DNA of 64,000 bases from the NCBI RefSeq assembly GCF_014931565.1, contig NZ_CP063353.1:1674001-1738000 (forward strand), given 5' to 3'. Below, piece after piece: positions 43,891 through 54,292 of the stretch. Below the pieces are notes generated by a model. It worked only from the letters and a program-made list of their open reading frames with translations. It was not told the DNA's origin and searched no databases. Origin of the DNA: Clostridium sp. 'deep sea' (GTDB lineage Bacteria > Bacillota > UBA994 > PWPR01). A program made the position numbers and the translations under genes. Within the stretch, counting starts at the first letter, position 1, and every line of letters begins with the position of its first letter.

Positions 43891-45537
43891 TTAGTCAGCA
43901 GTATTATAATGAGCTTTCACTTGCAGTTGTTCTTTTGAGAGCTTTATTAGCTTACCATTTTCTATTTTTAGTATTTCATCAACCATATCTAATAAATCTA
44001 AATTCACCTTATGAGTAACCATTATACATGTAGTATTTTTGAGATTCAAAATGGTTTTCTCTACCTCTTTAGCGGTTTCGGGATCTAGTGATGATGTCAT
44101 TTCATCAATTAATAATACTGGTGTTTTTCTTAAAATAGCTCGAGCAATTGCTATTCTTTGTTTTTCTCCACCTGATAAGTTTGATCCACCTTCCTCTATA
44201 ATCATATCCCACTTATCCATATATTTATAAAGCTGAGCATCTTGTAAAGCAGATTGTACTTCTTTATCCTCATACTTTTTAAATAGAGTTATATTATCAT
44301 ATAAGCTAGTACTAAATAGGAAAATATCTTGATGAATCATAGCCATAATCTTACTAACAGATTTATAATTAAACGATTTCATATCTATATTATCAACTCT
44401 AATTTCTCCTTTGTTTGCATGAACAGCTTTCATTAATAACTTTAACAAGGTAGACTTACCACATCCACTCTCTCCAATAAGTAGATATTTCTTTCCTTTT
44501 TTAAATTCTAAATTTAAATTATCAAACAAAACATTATTGCTGTAGGAAAACTGCAAACCTTCAACTTTAATACTTTTATTAAAAGTAACTGCTGTAGTTA
44601 ATGCACTTGATTCTGAAGATATATCTGTACTATTGCTTTTATTATATAACTTGACCTTTTTAATAATTCCTTTTACTGAATTAAACTTATTAATGTTATT
44701 GGCTACACTCATAATAGGCGATGCCAAATTGTTAGTTAATTGAATCGAGGCAATCATAGTACCTAAGGTTACTTGTCCTATTATTACTAAATAGGTTCCT
44801 ACAGACATAATTACAATAAATACTAATGTGCTAAGCATACTGTTTAAAGAACTTATAGCCACAGTTATATTGTTAAATTTATATCTTTTTTCTTCAACGC
44901 TATTATTAGAAGCATTATAATTATTTAAAACATCGTCAACAATATTAAAGCTTTTAATGGTATGTATTCCTAAAATATATTCCTTTATACTTCTAACCTG
45001 ATTTACAAGAGCATTTGTATAGTTTAGCCTAGATTTGGATATTGCTTTGCCTGTTTTAGATGCCACCAGTATAGGTATAAGAGATGATATTATGACTGCT
45101 ATAGTTAGCCAAACACTTAGGTAAAGCATATACACTAGAGCTATAACCGCTGTGGAAATACTGAGTGTTGTTTTAAATATATTTCTATAATAGTCATTTT
45201 CGAGAAGGTTAATGTCATTGTTTAGTAAAGATATTATTTTAGATGATTCATGTTTTTGTGACTCATCTAAAATAACATTTTTAAAAATATTTCTTTTTAA
45301 GCGAGTAAGGTTATTCTTTATTAACTTATTTTGCATTATGTTACTTAAAAATCCGATAATTGTGGTTAAAATAAGATATGCAATAGCCAATTTTATTGTA
45401 TTAATAAGAACACTAACATCTCCTGTTACAGATGAATCTACAATTTTCTTTAGTATTATAGCTATATAAACTGTAAAAAAAGCATTTAAGATAGTAAATA
45501 TAATACTTAGAATAAAAAGAGAACCTTTTTTAATCAC
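43891..45537 (-). CDS. ABC exporter, fused membrane and ATPase domains
   Basis: A half-transporter of 548 residues that works as a dimer and exports an unknown compound. Six membrane helices in residues ~1-290 are followed by a nucleotide-binding domain with Walker A GESGCGKSTLL, Q-loop IHQDIFLFS, signature NLSGGEKQRIAIARAI, Walker B VLLIDEMTSSLD and switch histidine VTHKVNLD. The catalytic glutamate is present, so a homodimer could be active. It is isolated from the heterodimeric exporter further right and has no regulator or peptide gene next to it. Confidence 0.9.
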   Translation of the reverse strand: MIKKGSLFILSIIFTILNAFFTVYIAIILKKIVDSSVTGDVSVLINTIKLAIAYLILTTIIGFLSNIMQNKLIKNNLTRLKRNIFKNVILDESQKHESSKIISLLNNDINLLENDYYRNIFKTTLSISTAVIALVYMLYLSVWLTIAVIISSLIPILVASKTGKAISKSRLNYTNALVNQVRSIKEYILGIHTIKSFNIVDDVLNNYNASNNSVEEKRYKFNNITVAISSLNSMLSTLVFIVIMSVGTYLVIIGQVTLGTMIASIQLTNNLASPIMSVANNINKFNSVKGIIKKVKLYNKSNSTDISSESSALTTAVTFNKSIKVEGLQFSYSNNVLFDNLNLEFKKGKKYLLIGESGCGKSTLLKLLMKAVHANKGEIRVDNIDMKSFNYKSVSKIMAMIHQDIFLFSTSLYDNITLFKKYEDKEVQSALQDAQLYKYMDKWDMIIEEGGSNLSGGEKQRIAIARAILRKTPVLLIDEMTSSLDPETAKEVEKTILNLKNTTCIMVTHKVNLDLLDMVDEILKIENGKLIKLSKEQLQVKAHYNTAD

Positions 45538-45610
45538 TTGTCAACTCAACTCCTCACAAATTTTTATATCATTTGAGAATAATTTATTAACTAAAATTTT
45601 ATATTTTTAA

Positions 45611-45675
45611 GCAAAACTATAATAAATACGAAAACTACTCTATGGGTAAACCTCGTGTTCACTTGCGTTTATCTC
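45611..45675 (-). repeat. Dispersed repeat family, copy 1 (inverted, diverged)
   Basis: On the minus strand GATAAACGCAAGTGAACACG, then AGGTTTACCC and CGTATTTATTATAGTTTTG align with the two direct copies at 45824-45930 and 45938-46018. It is the most diverged of the three. Confidence 0.65.
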
Positions 45676-45823
45676 ATTTAAAAAAGTAATATATTAAATT
45701 ATTTAAGAATATATCCACTGATTTTAATATAATACCTTTATATTTACTACATTTTCAAGATTATGTCAACTATATTTAAACTAATTATTTATGGTAATTT
45801 CTAATTCTTATGTAGTATAGTTG

Positions 45824-45930
45824 TTTTATTCTTGTTTTTTCTTCCTAAGACAAACACGGGTGAACACAAGGTTCACCCCTACATTGGGTTTGTGTATTTA
45901 TTATAATTTTAGTTTAATGGGGATTTTGTA
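45824..45930 (+). repeat. Dispersed repeat family, copy 2 (with intact hairpin)
   Basis: Contains TTCTTG, then GACAAACACGGGTGAACAC, the hairpin GGGTGAACACAAGGTTCACCC (21 nt, quoted as GGGTGAAC / GTTCACCC) with CCTACATTGGG, and GTATTTATTATAATTTTAGT. The G-rich hairpin core resembles the short GTAGGGGTGAAC-type elements seen in many bacterial genomes. Confidence 0.7.
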
Positions 45931-45937
45931 ACTATCC

Positions 45938-46018
45938 TATTCTTGTTCATCTCTTCTTATGACAAACACGGGTGAACACGAACGTATTTATTGCAGTTTT
46001 AGTATAATGAAATTTTTA
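45938..46018 (+). repeat. Dispersed repeat family, copy 3 (hairpin half deleted)
   Basis: Begins TTCTTGTTCATCTC, repeats GACAAACACGGGTGAACACG exactly over 19 bases and then jumps to GTATTTATTGCAGTTTTAGT. The second half of the hairpin (AAGGTTCACCCCTAC in copy 2) is missing. The region 45676-45823 between copies 1 and 2 is plain A+T-rich DNA. Confidence 0.7.
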
Positions 46019-46049
46019 GTAACGCCGAGAGCGGACCACCTCGTAAGAA

Positions 46050-47825
46050 TCAGCCTAATTTCCAGCCTAGGTCTTCCAACTGTTTATACACCTGATACCA
46101 GCCCTTTTCTTGAGCCAGTTGTTCTGGACTACCAGATTGTACTAAGTCTCCATTAGCTATAATATGAACAGTGTCAGCATCTACTATGCCAGACAAACGA
46201 TGGCTTATTGTTATTATGGTACGTTGTTTACTGGCCTGTCGTAGGGCTTTAAACACCTGTTCTTCAGTAATGGTATCCATTTGAGAAGTTGGCTCATCAA
46301 GTAATAATACAGGGGGATTACATACAATGGCTCTTGCTATGGATAAAAGTTGAGATTGCCCAAAAGATAATTTCATTCCAAGTGTACCCAGTACTGTATC
46401 GTATCCATTTTCGAGTTTTTTTATAAACTCATGTAATCCTACTGATTTGGCAGCTTCAATCACTGTCTCTCTAGGTATTTCATCACTATTTAAGGTAATA
46501 TTATCAGCTACGCTTCCTTCAAATATAACAACCTGTTGTGGAACTATACCTATTAGTTTCCTACGATCGTTTGGATTTAGGTTGTATGGATTAATTCCAT
46601 AAATCTTTACATTACCCTTATTTGGAGCATATAATCCAGCTATTAAATTCATTACAGTTGTTTTACCAGCGCCTGTTCTACCCACTAAGGCTACTTTTTC
46701 ACCCTGCGGTATTTTAATTGACATATTGTTTACGACATTTTGATTTTCATTGTAGGCAAAGCTAACATTTTGTAGCTCTATGCTATAAGGGTTATGATAG
46801 TATGCTATATTACCATTAAAGCTTTCTACTTCTGTCTTTTGTTCTGTTTTAACTGACAATAATTCAGCTACTCTTTTGATGCCAGCTACAGCTTGCTGAA
46901 TGATTTGTATTTGATTACTTAGTGATTCTATAGGACCGATTAAACGTGCTAAAAGGTCTATCATCGCTGCTAAGCTACCTACAGATATAGCTAAACTATC
47001 AGTTACTGAGGTTTTTGCTGCCAAGAATACTACTAAGGCAATAATAAATGACCTTAGAACCTGCATTACACAAGGAAATGCCGAGATATAAAAAGCTGCC
47101 TTATGGCTTACCTTAAGGCTATTCTCTAATGGTTGCTGAAATTTATGGCAATAATCATTTTCTTTATCAAAAGATTTTATAATTCTCATTCCACTAAAGA
47201 TTTCTTGTAGATAGGTATTAATAAGACTTATAGATTTTCGTATTAACATTTGAGCCTGTAACATGTTTTTACGAAAATATTTTGCTAATACATAAACAAT
47301 TGGCAATACTATTAGGCTCACAAAACACAAGGTAGGGCTTATAATATACATGGCAGCTAACACGCCAAATACTTGAAAAAGACTAGTAATAGAGTTAATT
47401 AAGCCTGCTGAGAATATTTTATCAATAGCATCTACATCCGATGTTACTCTACTAATTAGTTCCCCAACTGGGGTTTTATTGTAGTATTTAATAGACAGCT
47501 TTGATAAATGTGTTGCCAATTTTAAGCGCATATCATATAACAGATATTGCCCAATAAATGAGGTTAAATAGGTTTGTAAAAACTGCATAAAACTACTACC
47601 TAAATATACCAAAAGATATAATGTAGCTGCTTGCCAGAGCCCTTGTGTTATGCCTAACTTAATATAGTTATCAATAACTCTTCTTAAAATTAATGGTGGA
47701 AGTAAAGCAAAAAACATACTTACAATTGCTACAATAAATACTGCAGTAAATTTTGTCCATAATTTAGGCCAAGATTCTTTAATAGATAATTTTATTAATT
47801 GCCCAGGATTTATTTTATTATTCAT
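46050..47825 (-). CDS. Heterodimeric ABC multidrug exporter, subunit with catalytic glutamate (LmrD/YheH-like)
   Basis: Second half of a heterodimeric drug exporter; 591 residues from the ATG at 47825. That start was chosen because TTGGAGG lies 9 nt upstream; the ATG three codons earlier sits directly on the ribosome site, and the longer frame would overlap the previous gene widely. Walker A is GRTGAGKTTVMNL, Walker B VLLLDEPTSQMD with the catalytic glutamate. The signature is unusual: LSFGQSQLLSIARAI, where most transporters have LSGGQ. This defect pairs with the missing glutamate of the partner, so one of the two ATP sites is degenerate, as in LmrCD, BmrCD and TM287/288. It overlaps the partner gene by 8 nt. 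Confidence 0.93.
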   Translation of the reverse strand: MNNKINPGQLIKLSIKESWPKLWTKFTAVFIVAIVSMFFALLPPLILRRVIDNYIKLGITQGLWQAATLYLLVYLGSSFMQFLQTYLTSFIGQYLLYDMRLKLATHLSKLSIKYYNKTPVGELISRVTSDVDAIDKIFSAGLINSITSLFQVFGVLAAMYIISPTLCFVSLIVLPIVYVLAKYFRKNMLQAQMLIRKSISLINTYLQEIFSGMRIIKSFDKENDYCHKFQQPLENSLKVSHKAAFYISAFPCVMQVLRSFIIALVVFLAAKTSVTDSLAISVGSLAAMIDLLARLIGPIESLSNQIQIIQQAVAGIKRVAELLSVKTEQKTEVESFNGNIAYYHNPYSIELQNVSFAYNENQNVVNNMSIKIPQGEKVALVGRTGAGKTTVMNLIAGLYAPNKGNVKIYGINPYNLNPNDRRKLIGIVPQQVVIFEGSVADNITLNSDEIPRETVIEAAKSVGLHEFIKKLENGYDTVLGTLGMKLSFGQSQLLSIARAIVCNPPVLLLDEPTSQMDTITEEQVFKALRQASKQRTIITISHRLSGIVDADTVHIIANGDLVQSGSPEQLAQEKGWYQVYKQLEDLGWKLG

Positions 47826-49605
47826 TTTGTTCATCCTCCAACCATGTTTGAGCTGTATATATTTTATTATAGGTTTTGCCATTTTTAATAAGATGCGCAT
47901 GGCTTCCTTGCTCAATAATATTACCGTCGTTAAGTACAATTATATGATCTAAATAAGGAAATGCATTTAGCCTATGGGAGAATAAAAAAGCAGTTTTACC
48001 TTTTAGAGCTTTTCTCAATCGCTCAATTATTCGTCTTTCTGTACCTATATCAACAGCGGAAAAAGGATCATCTAAAATTTGCACATCGTTATCTGTATAT
48101 AGAGCTCTGGCTAAGGCAATTCTCTGACGTTGGCCACCAGAGACTCTTACCCCACGCTCTCCAATTAGGGTATCTGAACCATTCTCAAACAGTTCTAAAT
48201 CATCACTTAAAGCTACTAAGTAAAGAGCCTGCTCTAGTCTTTTATTATCATTATCTTGAAAACTACTACTAAACTTAATATTATCAGCAACAGATGCTGA
48301 AAATAAAAATGCATCCTGCCCCGCATAGGCTATAAGGTTGGCTTTTTGCTCTTTACTAAGATGAGAAAGCTCTTTATTACCATATTTTATGTTACCATCA
48401 TAACTGTATAAGCCTGTTAACACTAAAGCTAAAGCTGATTTACCAGAACCTATAGCGCCAGTTATTCCCACTAAAGAACCAATCGGTACTTCAAAATTTA
48501 TATTATTTAAAACATTTTGGCTTGTATTTGGATACTTAAAACTCATATTTTTAACAGATATGCTTTCATCTTTATTAAATTTAACTTTTTCAGCTGAATT
48601 TTCGTTTGATAGGTTGTTCTCAGTAAGGATTTTTTCTTTAATTCGTTGCCACGAGGCTAATGCACCATGCCAACGGTTAAATACATTTGCGGCTACCCAA
48701 GTTCTACGTGACATAGCTGTAAACATTGTTAAGTATGCTGTAAAGGTTCCGATACTCCAAAGTTTCTTAGCTACCATTTCACCACCCAAAGCTATTGCTG
48801 CAATAATACCTATTGAAGCTAAAAAAGCATATATAGGCATCATACCTTGTTTTAAAAGGGTGGTTTTAATGTTCCATTTTACTTGCTCATTGGCGTAATG
48901 TGCTAATTTCTTTTTTTCAGCTTTTTCTCTACCATAGAGCCTTAGAATTGCTACACTATTGATTGTAGAATATAAATGGGAGGTTACTCTGGAGGCATAC
49001 TGTCTGGCTTTTAAAGAGTATTGGTAAAGTGGGTGACGAGCACTCTCTGCTATCCATAAAGCAAAAGGAATCGGAATTGAACATACTAAAGTAATTTTGA
49101 AGTTATAGAATAGAAGTACAACAAAATATGATATCATTAACAGCCACGTATCCCAAGCCTCATTAATGGTATATTGCACTGTATCAACAAGTTGTTCTAC
49201 ATCGCCAACTGTTCTAGACATCATGTCTCCTACTGATTCTTGTTCAATTGAGCCCATATCTTTAGCTAAGGTACTTTCAAGCAAGCCAGCTCTCATATCA
49301 CCTCTTATCAGAAAACACATTTTTCTAATATAACGTCTTTTAATGTAGCGAGCATATTGAAAAAATGCAGTAGACAAAATAAATAATGTACACCAAAAGA
49401 TTAAGCTTTGAACTCTTATAGAAGTAACCCCTTGGTTTAATAATAATGAAACTACGTCTATGGCTTTACCCAGTATAATTGGGCCAGTAACAATAATGGT
49501 ATTGTATATAATACCACCTGCTGCCTCTAACCAAAATAATCCACGATGGCGATTAATATAAGATATTAACTTATGCTGATTGTTTTCAGGTAGTTTAAAT
49601 TTCAT
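47818..49605 (-). CDS. Heterodimeric ABC multidrug exporter, subunit with degenerate Walker B (LmrC/YheI-like)
   Basis: First half of the exporter, 595 residues: six membrane helices in ~1-320, then the nucleotide-binding domain. Walker A is GAIGSGKSALALVL, the signature VSGGQRQRIALARAL is canonical, but Walker B reads VQILDDPFSAVD with aspartate where the catalytic glutamate should be. This is the hallmark of the non-catalytic site in heterodimeric exporters, and its normal signature completes the active site of the partner. It lies 24 nt after the PadR regulator, the same arrangement as LmrR-LmrCD of lactococci. Confidence 0.93.
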   Translation of the reverse strand: MKFKLPENNQHKLISYINRHRGLFWLEAAGGIIYNTIIVTGPIILGKAIDVVSLLLNQGVTSIRVQSLIFWCTLFILSTAFFQYARYIKRRYIRKMCFLIRGDMRAGLLESTLAKDMGSIEQESVGDMMSRTVGDVEQLVDTVQYTINEAWDTWLLMISYFVVLLFYNFKITLVCSIPIPFALWIAESARHPLYQYSLKARQYASRVTSHLYSTINSVAILRLYGREKAEKKKLAHYANEQVKWNIKTTLLKQGMMPIYAFLASIGIIAAIALGGEMVAKKLWSIGTFTAYLTMFTAMSRRTWVAANVFNRWHGALASWQRIKEKILTENNLSNENSAEKVKFNKDESISVKNMSFKYPNTSQNVLNNINFEVPIGSLVGITGAIGSGKSALALVLTGLYSYDGNIKYGNKELSHLSKEQKANLIAYAGQDAFLFSASVADNIKFSSSFQDNDNKRLEQALYLVALSDDLELFENGSDTLIGERGVRVSGGQRQRIALARALYTDNDVQILDDPFSAVDIGTERRIIERLRKALKGKTAFLFSHRLNAFPYLDHIIVLNDGNIIEQGSHAHLIKNGKTYNKIYTAQTWLEDEQNE

Positions 49606-49629
49606 CTACTTCTCCCCTCACCATATTTA

Positions 49630-49938
49630 TTATTTTATTTTTAGTTCACTAACTAACTCTTTTAGATAATTACGAGCATTCTTTAGCTCTTCTTTACCCA
49701 GCTCTGTTATTTCATAGTATTTTCTTATTTTTCCGTTTACGTTTTTTTCAAAATGAGCTAATAAACCCTCTTTTTCTAAGCTGTGTAATATAGGGTAAAG
49801 GGTACCAGGACTTAAGTTATAGCCATGTTCAGCTAACTCAGCTAACATCCAACTGCCATAAATTGCTTCTTTATTGGCATGATGTAAGATGTGCAGACTA
49901 ATTAAGCCCTGAGATAATCTTTTCATTGTTAATCCCAT
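49630..49938 (-). CDS. PadR-family transcriptional repressor
   Basis: A 102-residue PadR-type winged-helix protein with ISLHILHHANKEAIYGSWML, NLSPGTLYPILHSLEKEGLL and GKIRKYYEITELGKEEL. The start at 49938 (MGLTMKRLSQG) was chosen because AAGGAG lies 7 nt upstream; an ATG 15 codons earlier would place the coding sequence over an operator-like palindrome. The protein has the short C-terminal helix that is used for dimerisation and drug binding in LmrR-type members. It leads an operon with the two exporter genes and probably represses it until a toxic compound binds. Confidence 0.92.
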   Translation of the reverse strand: MGLTMKRLSQGLISLHILHHANKEAIYGSWMLAELAEHGYNLSPGTLYPILHSLEKEGLLAHFEKNVNGKIRKYYEITELGKEELKNARNYLKELVSELKIK

Positions 49939-49964
49939 TTTTAAACTCCTTTTCAGTATTTCGT

Positions 49965-49979
49965 TATCGATTTTCGATA
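49965..49979. promoter_or_regulatory. Palindrome, candidate PadR operator
   Basis: TATCGA-TTT-TCGATA is a perfect inverted repeat about 12 nt upstream of the ribosome site of the PadR gene. Position and symmetry fit an autoregulatory site. Confidence 0.55.
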
Positions 49980-50037
49980 TCATATTTAGTAATAACAGTA
50001 TAATTGTTTATCTCAAATAATGCAAGTATAAAATCAA

Positions 50038-51209: not shown

Positions 51210-51920
51210 TTACAATACTTTAATTTCTGCTGGCTGAGTGGCAGTATAAACAAAGCGTAATGCTTCTTTAATTACTTGCTCTTGTAACTCAACATTATTT
51301 GGTTTACCAACTGTACAACCAAATGGATTTTCAATATTAATAGCTCTTGGAATACCTATAATTGATACAATTTGTTTTATTAAATTAAAAGTTACAGTTG
51401 GTACACCACTCTTTTCAATCTCTCTTGCAACTAGTCCACCGGACTGTTGACAGATAGGTCAAACAGGAACTATCAGCGCTATATCTACACCTAACTGCTT
51501 AATTCTTTGAGCAATTTGTTTACCTGTTTCAAACAAATATTTAGGCTCAGGTATAAAACCTGTAATGCTAAAATTAACTTCGCTAACCTTATTTATAAAG
51601 CCCTGCTCTGCCAACTGCTTAAGCCTTTGTACAGGAAATATTACGTTTAAATCTACTGCTGAAAAATCTTTGTTAAAGTGTTCATGAGCAATACTTAAAT
51701 CTGTATACGAAGTAGTTAATGTAATCTCCCTAAAGCCTTCATCTATATCTTTTCTATTGACTATGTTAAAAGCTTTATCGGTATTTTCATAAATACCACC
51801 AGTAGTAACAACTGCTACTTTACATTCAGCTAAAGGTTTGTTAGGTTTTGCAAAAGGTATGTTACTTGCTCTTACCCAATCAAAGGTTTCAATAAACTTT
51901 TTCAACTTAGAATTTGTCAT
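51210..51920 (-). CDS. PrdB/GrdB-like selenoprotein with in-frame UGA (selenocysteine 154)
   Basis: Member of the glycine/betaine/sarcosine/D-proline reductase selenoprotein B family. The frame from 51920 reads 153 residues to a TGA at 51459-51461 and continues open and conserved to a TAA at 51210, giving 236 residues if UGA is read as selenocysteine. The site reads IVPV-U-PICQQSGGLVARE, and the downstream part (GVPTVTFNLIKQIVSIIG, NPFGCTVGKP) is family-typical. Total length is close to D-proline reductase PrdB (about 240). A SECIS-like hairpin follows the UGA. No PrdA, GrdA or other reductase subunit is adjacent, so it is an orphan; the reductive target is unknown. A MerR regulator is transcribed divergently. 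Confidence 0.9.
51428..51461 (-). promoter_or_regulatory. UGA codon with bacterial SECIS-like hairpin
   Basis: After the UGA (51459-51461) come 18 nt, then a GGU loop at 51438-51440. The stem is CAACAGTCC / GGACTAGTTG with one bulged base. In E. coli fdhF the GGU loop is also 18 nt after its UGA, and SelB binds that loop. The structure lies within the coding region, as bacterial SECIS elements do. Confidence 0.75.
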
Positions 51921-51947
51921 TATGACCTCCTTAGTTATTAAGTGTAT

Positions 51948-51989
51948 AAAGGTAATGATTATTATAACATACCTTTACGTCAACGTCAA
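51948..51989 (-). promoter_or_regulatory. Promoter of the selenoprotein gene with overlapping dyad
   Basis: On the minus strand TTGACG (51984-51989), a 17-nt spacer and TATAAT (51961-51966) form a near-perfect promoter. A dyad AAAGGTA-N15-TACCTTT (51948-51976) is centred on the -10 box and may bind a repressor, possibly the MerR-type protein encoded divergently. Confidence 0.65.
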
Positions 51990-52017: not shown

Positions 52018-52052
52018 AGCTATAGTTAATTTGTATTTGTGGGGTGAATATT

Positions 52053-52487
52053 ATGCACGAAAATAATAAGCTACTAAAAATCGGCAAATTAAGTAAAATG
52101 GCAAATATGAGTTGCAGAGCAATTCGGTACTATGAAGAACTCGAAATAATCCACCCTACCAGTGTTAGTGAAGGTGGTTTTAGATTATACGATGAAACAG
52201 TTCTTCACAAGTTATCTGTTATTAAGGATTTTAAAGAACTGGGTTTTTCACTTGAGCAAATTAAAGATATACTATTGCCTAAACCCGAGCTTACCAAAAC
52301 AAAGCTCTTGAAATACTCTCGTAATATTATTAAAACTCAATTAAAGGCCATTAATAAAGATATTGAACACCTATTAGAGCTTAAGAAAAAAAACGAAAGT
52401 GCCTTAAAAAAATTGCAAATTTGTGAGAAGTGTACTGCAAATATATGTGATGAAGAATGTGAAAATAAAAAGGCATATATTATTTAA
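52053..52487 (+). CDS. MerR-family transcriptional regulator
   Basis: A 144-residue regulator. The helix-turn-helix starts LLKIGKLSKMANMSCRAIRYYEE, followed by the wing (GGFRLYDE) and LGFSLEQIKDILLPK; a long dimer helix covers about residues 75-125. The C-terminus has four cysteines, CEKCTANICDEEC, a possible metal or redox site not usual for drug-binding members. The ATG at 52053 was chosen because GGGGTGA lies 5 nt before it; a GTG three codons earlier overlaps that site. It precedes the flavoprotein gene by 17 nt and faces the selenoprotein gene, so it may control one or both. Confidence 0.9.
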   Translation: MHENNKLLKIGKLSKMANMSCRAIRYYEELEIIHPTSVSEGGFRLYDETVLHKLSVIKDFKELGFSLEQIKDILLPKPELTKTKLLKYSRNIIKTQLKAINKDIEHLLELKKKNESALKKLQICEKCTANICDEECENKKAYII

Positions 52488-52504: not shown

Positions 52505-54292
52505 ATGCGAAAAATATTTTCTATTATACTATTGCTTGTTGTTTTGTCTACAAACATATTATCTGTTAATGCTCTTAGTAAATATAGTTATAAATATGAT
52601 GACTTTCTTTCTAAATATCGTATCCTTGTTAAGACTAAGTATGATGTCATTGTTTATGGTAGTGATCCTGAGGGAATTTCTACTGCTGTCTCTGCAGCAA
52701 GGGCGGGTAGTAAAGTTCTATTAATAGATAAAAGAGACAAAATAGGTGGATTATTCACTTTGGGTTGGCTTAATTTTTTAGACATGAACTATTACAAACA
52801 AACTCTTTTAACTGGAGGTATTTTTGAGGAGTTTTTTAATAAAGTAGAAGGATATGCTTTTAAAATAACTACAGCGATAAAAGTTTTTAACAAAATGATA
52901 AAAGATGAAACAAATATTACTGTTCTATTAAATGCCAAAAATATTACGCCAATTATACATAACAATAAAATAACTGGTATTAAAGCAACTATTCTTAATT
53001 CAAACAAACATTTTTATTGTGACTCTATAATAGATGCTAGCCAAAATGGTGATTTGGCGTCAGATGCAGGTGTACCCTTTACACTAGGACAAGCTGCAAT
53101 TGGAGGACCCGAATACGGTATGGCTGTAACTCAGGTATTTAGTCTTAAAGGTATGAGTTCTGCTGAATGGAATAAATTATGTAAGTATTTAAAAAATGAT
53201 AATGATATACATAGTAATTCTAATAAGAATACTGCTTGGGGATTTGGAAACTTTAGCGATTTATATAAGCCTACGCAAAATAATGTACAACTGCGTGGTT
53301 TAAATTTAGCAAGAGAACCGAACGGTATAATTATGGTAAATGCCTTAAAAATATACGCTATAAACCCGTTAGATAATAAAAGTTTAGAAGAAGCTAAAAA
53401 AATGGCTAAAGAGGAACTTAAACTTATTATTCCTTTTTTAAGAAAAAACGTACCTTATATGAAACACATTGAACTTGATTCTCTTGCACCTGAATTGTAT
53501 ATACGTGAATCAAGACATTTTTCTACTGTTTATCAATTAACAATAGATGATATACTAGAAAATAAAGATTTTGATGATAGAATAGCGCTAGGTAGTTATC
53601 CTGTTGACATGCAAGGTACTACCCCAAAGGACGCTTTAATAGTTGGCAACCCTCTTAAGTACTCAGTGCCGCTCAGAAGTATTGTGCCCATTAATATAGA
53701 TAATCTATTTATTGTGGGTAGAACAGCAGGGTTTGATGCCCTTGCTCATGGAAGTACGAGGGTTGTTCCTATAGGCATGTGTACTGGTGAAGCAGCAGGA
53801 CTAGCAGCTACATTCATAAATAAACATAAAATTAGCAATAAGCAATTAGTTGATAACAAAAAGCTAGTAAGTGAGCTACAAAATAAATTAATAGCAAATG
53901 GGGCTTATTTAAAACCCTTTAATATAAAGACTGAAATTACTAAACACCCTTGTTATGATGGATTAAAACTAGTTAGAAAATATGGTCAAATTTGTGGCAA
54001 TTACAATAATGATTATCTTCTTGATAAAAATATTACTAATATGCAGTTTATGTGGTTGTTTGATGGTTTAAGCAAAAGAATTAAATGGGAACTAACTGAC
54101 ATTTTTAATAGAATCTATGACTACGAACCCCTTACTTTCAATAATGTATTATATAATTTCAGTAAAAATAAAGAACTATGTGAGTACCTAAAAATATCAG
54201 AAATGTTTAAGGATATAGATTATGAAAAGAAATTAACAAAAGGTGAATCAACTATGGTACTTTATTACTGTAAACAATTTATTAGTAAATAA
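52505..54292 (+). CDS. Exported FAD-dependent oxidoreductase (FAD_oxidored family)
   Basis: A 595-residue flavoprotein. Residues 1-24 form a signal peptide (MRKIFSIILLLVVLSTNIL then an alanine/leucine cleavage region). The FAD-binding motif follows as DVIVYGSDPEGISTAVSAAR with VLLIDKRDKIGG, a GxGxxG variant in which the first glycine position reads GSDPEG. The middle part ends in GRTAGFDALAHGSTRVVP and MCTGEAAGLAA, typical of pfam12831-like enzymes. The last 130 residues are an extra domain without clear match. Secretion of an FAD enzyme is unusual and suggests action on an extracellular or cell-wall-associated substrate. Same unit as the MerR gene. Confidence 0.85.
   Translation: MRKIFSIILLLVVLSTNILSVNALSKYSYKYDDFLSKYRILVKTKYDVIVYGSDPEGISTAVSAARAGSKVLLIDKRDKIGGLFTLGWLNFLDMNYYKQTLLTGGIFEEFFNKVEGYAFKITTAIKVFNKMIKDETNITVLLNAKNITPIIHNNKITGIKATILNSNKHFYCDSIIDASQNGDLASDAGVPFTLGQAAIGGPEYGMAVTQVFSLKGMSSAEWNKLCKYLKNDNDIHSNSNKNTAWGFGNFSDLYKPTQNNVQLRGLNLAREPNGIIMVNALKIYAINPLDNKSLEEAKKMAKEELKLIIPFLRKNVPYMKHIELDSLAPELYIRESRHFSTVYQLTIDDILENKDFDDRIALGSYPVDMQGTTPKDALIVGNPLKYSVPLRSIVPINIDNLFIVGRTAGFDALAHGSTRVVPIGMCTGEAAGLAATFINKHKISNKQLVDNKKLVSELQNKLIANGAYLKPFNIKTEITKHPCYDGLKLVRKYGQICGNYNNDYLLDKNITNMQFMWLFDGLSKRIKWELTDIFNRIYDYEPLTFNNVLYNFSKNKELCEYLKISEMFKDIDYEKKLTKGESTMVLYYCKQFISK

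Follow-up and report, generated by a model that had tools for sequence, protein, structure and literature searches.

The UGA codon within the gene studied here is genuinely decoded as selenocysteine (Sec), and the gene encodes a true selenoprotein. Sequence comparison identifies the product as a stand-alone homologue of PrdB, itself the counterpart of the C-terminal half of GrdB. We consider it probable that this partner-free protein acts as a pyruvoyl-independent, thiol-driven reductase under the control of a MerR-family protein in its own genus; Sec coding, the SECIS hairpin, the homology and the lack of partners are computational results, whereas catalysis, electron donor and regulation are inferred. 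Throughout, the window denotes the whole 64-kb stretch of DNA that was analysed.

Decoding of the in-frame UGA as selenocysteine

On the minus strand, the gene runs from an ATG at 51920-51918 to a TAA terminator at 51212-51210 (Table 1). A mechanical ORF caller ended it at the UGA (51461-51459) with a product of 153 aa, as the original prediction had expected of automatic gene calling. Re-reading of the minus strand confirmed the predicted extent of the gene and the count of 82 codons beyond the UGA, for a total of 236 residues. Sec lies in the context VPV-U-PICQQSGGLVARE, with the extended motif VPVUPICQQSGGLVARE.

Table 1. Coordinates of the features of the selenoprotein locus within the window.
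Feature	Position	Strand	Remarks
Stand-alone PrdB-like selenoprotein gene	51210..51920	-	236 aa, Sec at residue 154
UGA codon read as Sec (U154 of the U-P-I-C motif)	51459..51461	-	UGA in 7/7 clade members
Bacterial SECIS hairpin core, CAGUCC / loop GGU / GGACUA	51432..51446	-	12 nt past the UGA; five of six pairs
Shine-Dalgarno AGGAGG	51926..51931	-	Sequence
Promoter-like TTGACG-17-TATAAT of the selenoprotein gene	51961..51989	-	Consensus match only; -35 box and flank conserved in L051
Imperfect dyad of TTRACG-4-CGTYAA type, candidate MerR operator	51974..51989	.	Overlaps the -35 box; putative
Divergent MerR-family gene, C-x2-C-x4-C-x3-C tail, candidate regulator	52044..52487	+	Pfam MerR
FAD-dependent oxidoreductase (PF12831), signal-peptide-like N-terminus	52505..54292	+	Downstream of merR

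We observed a UGA at codon 154 throughout the immediate clade (seven members, window gene included) and in most of the wider family. The six nearest other loci, found in a same-genus relative (56%), two genomes of the class (58%), two Halanaerobiaceae MAGs and one Limnochordia MAG, have in common the motif VPVUPICQQSGG with UGA. Conserved coding sequence continues past this codon, as originally claimed: amino acid identity to the nearest relative, the same-genus locus L051, was 61% after the UGA vs 56% before it, and on either side most nucleotide differences were at the third position of the codon (23/9/46 downstream of the UGA, 48/31/90 upstream). Homologues with Cys in place of Sec, which the original prediction proposed to look for, were found in a gammaproteobacterial clade (Halieaceae/SAR86), where Cys occupies the Sec column. 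Furthermore, all four genes selA, selB, selD and tRNA-Sec, likewise proposed as a check, are present in the window's genome: selB and selA are adjacent at 2.037-2.040 Mb, tRNA-Sec maps at 2.710 Mb (75.9 bits, gathering 47), and selD, which carries its own in-frame UGA, at 2.714 Mb. Across a sample of 50 homologue-carrying genomes, SelB was encoded in 41 of the 43 with a Sec form vs 4 of the 7 with a Cys form; no SelB reached the threshold used in the other two Sec-form genomes, whose assemblies are possibly incomplete.

A bacterial SECIS hairpin follows the UGA. The comparison took in 71 Sec homologues, 70 of them from the 80 loci plus the window gene itself, and 8 Cys homologues. In a fixed register, the stem averaged 5.27 of 6 pairs among the Sec homologues vs 3.66 expected when codons were redrawn synonymously by each gene's own usage, with a maximum of 4.0 in 1000 simulations. 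The loop opened with G in 71/71 sequences, and compensatory changes between homologues were seen at the third pair (G-C, C-G, A-U) and at the fourth pair (U-A, A-U, G-C). Because pair types change across phyla, shared ancestry alone is a poor explanation for the hairpin, though related sequences are not independent. The hairpin was absent from the 8 Cys homologues, whose same register held 2.1 pairs vs 2.3 by chance. An Rfam scan of the locus returned no match at gathering thresholds, and the single-sequence fold reached only z = -2.1. Mean shuffle z-scores gave no clear separation of Sec from Cys homologues, whereas the register-specific, codon-aware test separated them.

An ordinary stop, a sequencing error or a young nonsense mutation, with the downstream frame as a relic, would match the behaviour of the standard ORF caller, but we give this explanation next to no credence: the other six clade genomes and most of the wider family also have UGA at this codon, the coding sequence downstream is conserved, and a SECIS hairpin is present in a genome with Sec machinery. 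These lines of evidence agree with the UGA-encoded selenoprotein originally predicted. Neither outcome that had been named as refuting it, a genome devoid of sel genes or homologues ending at the UGA, was observed.

Relationship to PrdB and GrdB, and the pyruvoyl subunit

The protein matched the Pfam GRDB model (PF07355) at 40.7 bits (gathering 22) over the portion before Sec. Its best NCBIfam model was PrdB (TIGR04483), which it matched at 143.2 bits, below the 300-bit equivalog cut-off; true PrdB controls from relatives scored 433.5 and 388.9 bits on the same model. Membership of the PrdB/GrdB family was therefore upheld, as was the resemblance in length to PrdB (236 vs about 240 aa). Homology to PrdB extends over nearly the whole length, with Sec in a UxxC motif and DxN...FP, PR and other conserved residues in common. 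In contrast, PrdB has UGTCHRS where the window protein has UPIC, belongs to a separate clade, and lacks a SECIS hairpin in the window gene's register; furthermore, no PrdA adjoins the window gene or was identified in its genome. As for GrdB, GrdF and GrdH (PF07355, protein B of glycine, sarcosine and betaine reductase), their C-terminal half is homologous to the window protein, which matches only positions about 204-426 of the GrdB profile (full-length GrdB, about 435 aa). The window protein lacks the N-terminal half (about 200 aa), the locus is devoid of GrdE, GrdA and GrdC, and GrdB carries UGTCTRCG instead of UPIC.

In a maximum-likelihood tree of 95 sequences, the window gene fell in a clade of seven (100/99) within a large, mostly UPxC-type group, and a branch with 98/98 support split this group from PrdB, GrdB and two others. 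Some deeper placements rest on long branches, and no conclusion was drawn from them. Across 56 aligned members, D90, N92, P96, U/C154, E169, T175 and R192 were invariant and G42, H79, G121, P152, C157 and P191 nearly so. Automatic naming would make the gene the D-proline reductase subunit PrdB, in keeping with its best NCBIfam match, similar length and UxxC motif. This identity is very improbable, however, given a score of 143 bits against a cut-off of 300 and the 389-433 bits of true PrdB, UPIC rather than UGTCHRS, a position apart in the tree, and a genome with no PrdA candidate, whose three GrdE-like proteins are each paired with a GrdB.

We discarded the view of the window gene as an isolated oddity, since partnerless PrdB-like selenoproteins such as this one form a large family found in many phyla. 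The close type is rare, with seven matches above 360 bits in 398 Bacillota genomes. Several homologues depart from the common form. One from a Bacillota MAG (L064:1829-2542) has G-L-V-G for U-P-x-C and seems to be a paralogue that has no redox site, and another (L122:2283-2945) has UPLD, retaining Sec with Asp for the resolving Cys. A longer relative of about 319 aa in a same-family genome (L033:1480-2440, minus strand; UPVCHVSVGHVARILEE) represents another PrdB-like selenoprotein subtype. Long forms of about 400-420 aa with a C-terminal extension were also seen, either with Sec (L069, L075, L089-L130; Chloroflexota; UPFCTRSVCA) or with Cys (L071, L097, L112; Halieaceae, Gammaproteobacteria; CPNCSRTVCG).

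PrdB and GrdB act with a pyruvoyl subunit derived from PrdA or GrdE (PF09338), as was reportedly established by Kabisch (1999) and Bednarski (2001). No PrdA or GrdE was found within the window, and the immediate neighbours of the gene include no Grd genes. The genome contains three PF09338 (GrdE) genes at 1.44, 2.50 and 2.72 Mb, the window lying at 1.67-1.74 Mb, and each of them adjoins its own GrdB. We then considered 50 family-carrying genomes from Bacillota, Chloroflexota, Actinomycetota, Pseudomonadota, Acidobacteriota, Myxococcota and other phyla. PF09338 was absent from 44 of them; in the other six it was on a different contig or at a distance of hundreds of kilobases, never beside a family member. 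Within the UPxC group, four genomes (G001, G003, G009 and G052) had it on other contigs only, and none was found in G051, a relative of 99% completeness. As a positive control, UGTC-type prdB had PF09338 within about 2 kb in 6/6 genomes (G019, G050, G056, G065, G091 and G093). Many sampled genomes are draft MAGs, in which single absences could be gaps but the overall pattern could not. Therefore, the lack of a partner subunit, originally noted near this one gene, is a property of the family and not of the window locus.

The protein could instead be a substrate-specific B component of an amino-acid reductase, its gene lying apart from that of its partner, and borrow one of the three GrdE in trans. 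Its homology to GrdB (C-terminal half) and the three GrdE of the genome would allow this, but a GrdB already adjoins every GrdE, the GrdB N-terminal half is missing from the window protein, and 44 of the 50 family genomes, as well as the nearly complete G051, have no GrdE or PrdA at all. We regard such borrowing as quite unlikely.

Two further arrangements were observed. Frames of about 645-655 aa (L032:181-2151; G019:C3:85354-86010; G153:C1:1749927-1750610) seemingly combine PrdB with a PrdA-like portion in a single protein. A stretch of about 12 kb in the window's genome (G000:C1:2708778-2722868; L013, L135, L131, L001) holds tRNA-Sec, the selD with Sec and a grdE/grdB pair.

Gene neighbourhood and candidate regulation

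The original prediction read the divergent MerR gene and the flavoprotein as a small redox or detoxification locus. At L051, a MerR ORF with 56% identity occupies the same position with all four tail Cys kept, and a dyad of the TTGACG...ACGT type over the -35 box persists in an otherwise diverged intergenic region. No MerR gene was found beside the other homologues, so conservation of this arrangement is confined to the same genus, where the divergent Cys-rich MerR protein is the probable regulator of the selenoprotein gene. The FAD oxidoreductase is missing from L051; it was therefore dropped as a partner and is probably not part of the selenoprotein system, and the reading as a locus was not supported. 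Elsewhere in the window, the minus strand of 43891-49983 holds three consecutive ABC-transporter permease/ATPase fusion genes and, ahead of them, a gene for a small PadR-like regulator (49630-49983).

Beyond the genus, neighbours vary, with for example an Rrf2-type gene upstream in L055 and a Crp-type gene just downstream in L056. Clustering of the neighbourhoods of 80 loci revealed no gene conserved beside the whole family, synteny being limited to the lineage level. Three of the 80 loci (L057, L058 and L061), the window locus not among them, carry just downstream of the homologue a Sec-containing DsbA-like gene (SDYxUPFC: SDYLUPFC, SDYIUPFC), plus a PNPOx-type protein. When more DsbA-like Sec motifs were sought by pattern, credible ones turned up in these three loci only, and did so again on a repeat scan of them. 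These neighbours point to thiol-redox chemistry. The DsbA/FrnE-like genes, each with its own UGA (L057:10735-11300, L058 about 1200-1832, L061:11876-12487), thus make two neighbouring selenoprotein genes per locus; in L057 and L058 the MAG sequence seems to contain a frameshift.

Proposed chemistry and significance

An AlphaFold2 model built with 56 homologues had a pLDDT of 95.7. It places U154 after a strand (147-151) and C157 at the opening of a helix (157-170), and reactive selenols or thiols are commonly positioned at such a junction of a strand end with a helix start. Sequence searches of the PDB, single and profile, found no credible relative, and Foldseek against the PDB returned nothing at E <= 0.001. 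Rossmann-like domains of the LacI/periplasmic-binding type were the best VIA-align hits (Z 9.7); this arrangement is common and was not taken as kinship. As no solved structure of the family was matched, conservation and secondary structure were used to propose a redox and substrate pocket, presumably formed by U154-x-x-C157, H79, D90-x-N92, E169, T175 and R192.

Catalysis by proline reductase involves activation of the amine by the pyruvoyl group and attack by the selenol, after which the UxxC pair is reduced again. We propose that SelB, bound to the hairpin just past the UGA, would direct Sec-tRNA to codon 154, and that the protein would act without PrdA or GrdE, the amine activator of proline and glycine reductases. 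Since there is no pyruvoyl group, the substrate would have to bring its own good leaving group, and turnover would need thiol donors. U154, at its predicted position between the strand end and the helix N-terminus, may attack a small electrophilic substrate such as a halide or organohalide, a peroxide, a disulfide or a thioether, none of which is favoured. C157 would then resolve the Se-adduct into a selenenylsulfide, to be reduced by a thiol donor of the thioredoxin or DsbA type. A GrdB/GrdE-like complex, the fluoroacetate reductase FarBE (PMC10838667), has been credited with cleaving C-F bonds, which suggests that this chemistry may reach other leaving groups, though GrdE is kept there. FarBE resembles our proposal in that its GrdB-like selenoprotein is believed to break a bond that is not C-N, but differs in its GrdE-like partner and complete GrdB-type protein.

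A non-catalytic or regulatory selenoprotein, i.e. a redox sensor, a thiol-disulfide relay or a selenium carrier, is a less likely but serious alternative. It is consistent with the UxxC motif, with the Sec-DsbA neighbours in three relatives and with the lack of metabolic partner genes conserved across the family. Many invariant residues lie outside UxxC, however, several of them common to PrdB and GrdB, and this suggests binding of a small molecule.

Proteins of this kind have probably been catalogued before under another name. UxxC "PrdB" accounted for 42 Sec genes in the Sargasso set (PMC1088965) and 235 in the GOS survey (PMC2398784), and "proline reductase" was listed in Anaeromyxobacter and Geobacter (PMC1794560). 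Like our family, the Sargasso and GOS proteins have UxxC (pfam07355 in the GOS table), are mostly Sec with some Cys, and are common in marine bacteria; they were filed under proline reductase, whereas the marine MAG members found here have no PrdA or GrdE in their genomes. Because the marine and proteobacterial members found here are PrdA-less, many survey entries are, by extrapolation, probably likewise, and databases that call partnerless proteins "proline reductase" probably name them wrongly. Our literature search for free-standing PrdB-like or GrdB-like proteins did not find a description of a partnerless subfamily among the papers covered.

We put at about even the chances of a broader proposal: that seleno-reductases of the U-P-x-C type form a large and ancient family, found across phyla and independent of a pyruvoyl group, which selenoproteome catalogues have subsumed under "D-proline reductase PrdB". 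Its members would each act alone on a non-amine electrophile, in aerobes and anaerobes alike, and the window gene would belong to a Bacillota branch with its own MerR regulator. If many survey entries are indeed partnerless UPxC proteins, this would be a common selenoenzyme family with a misleading name and no known function. The absence of PrdA and GrdE from the genome provides a simple test separating the partnerless group from true PrdB, and the compact single-subunit form would open selenium active-site chemistry to study without a pyruvoyl partner.
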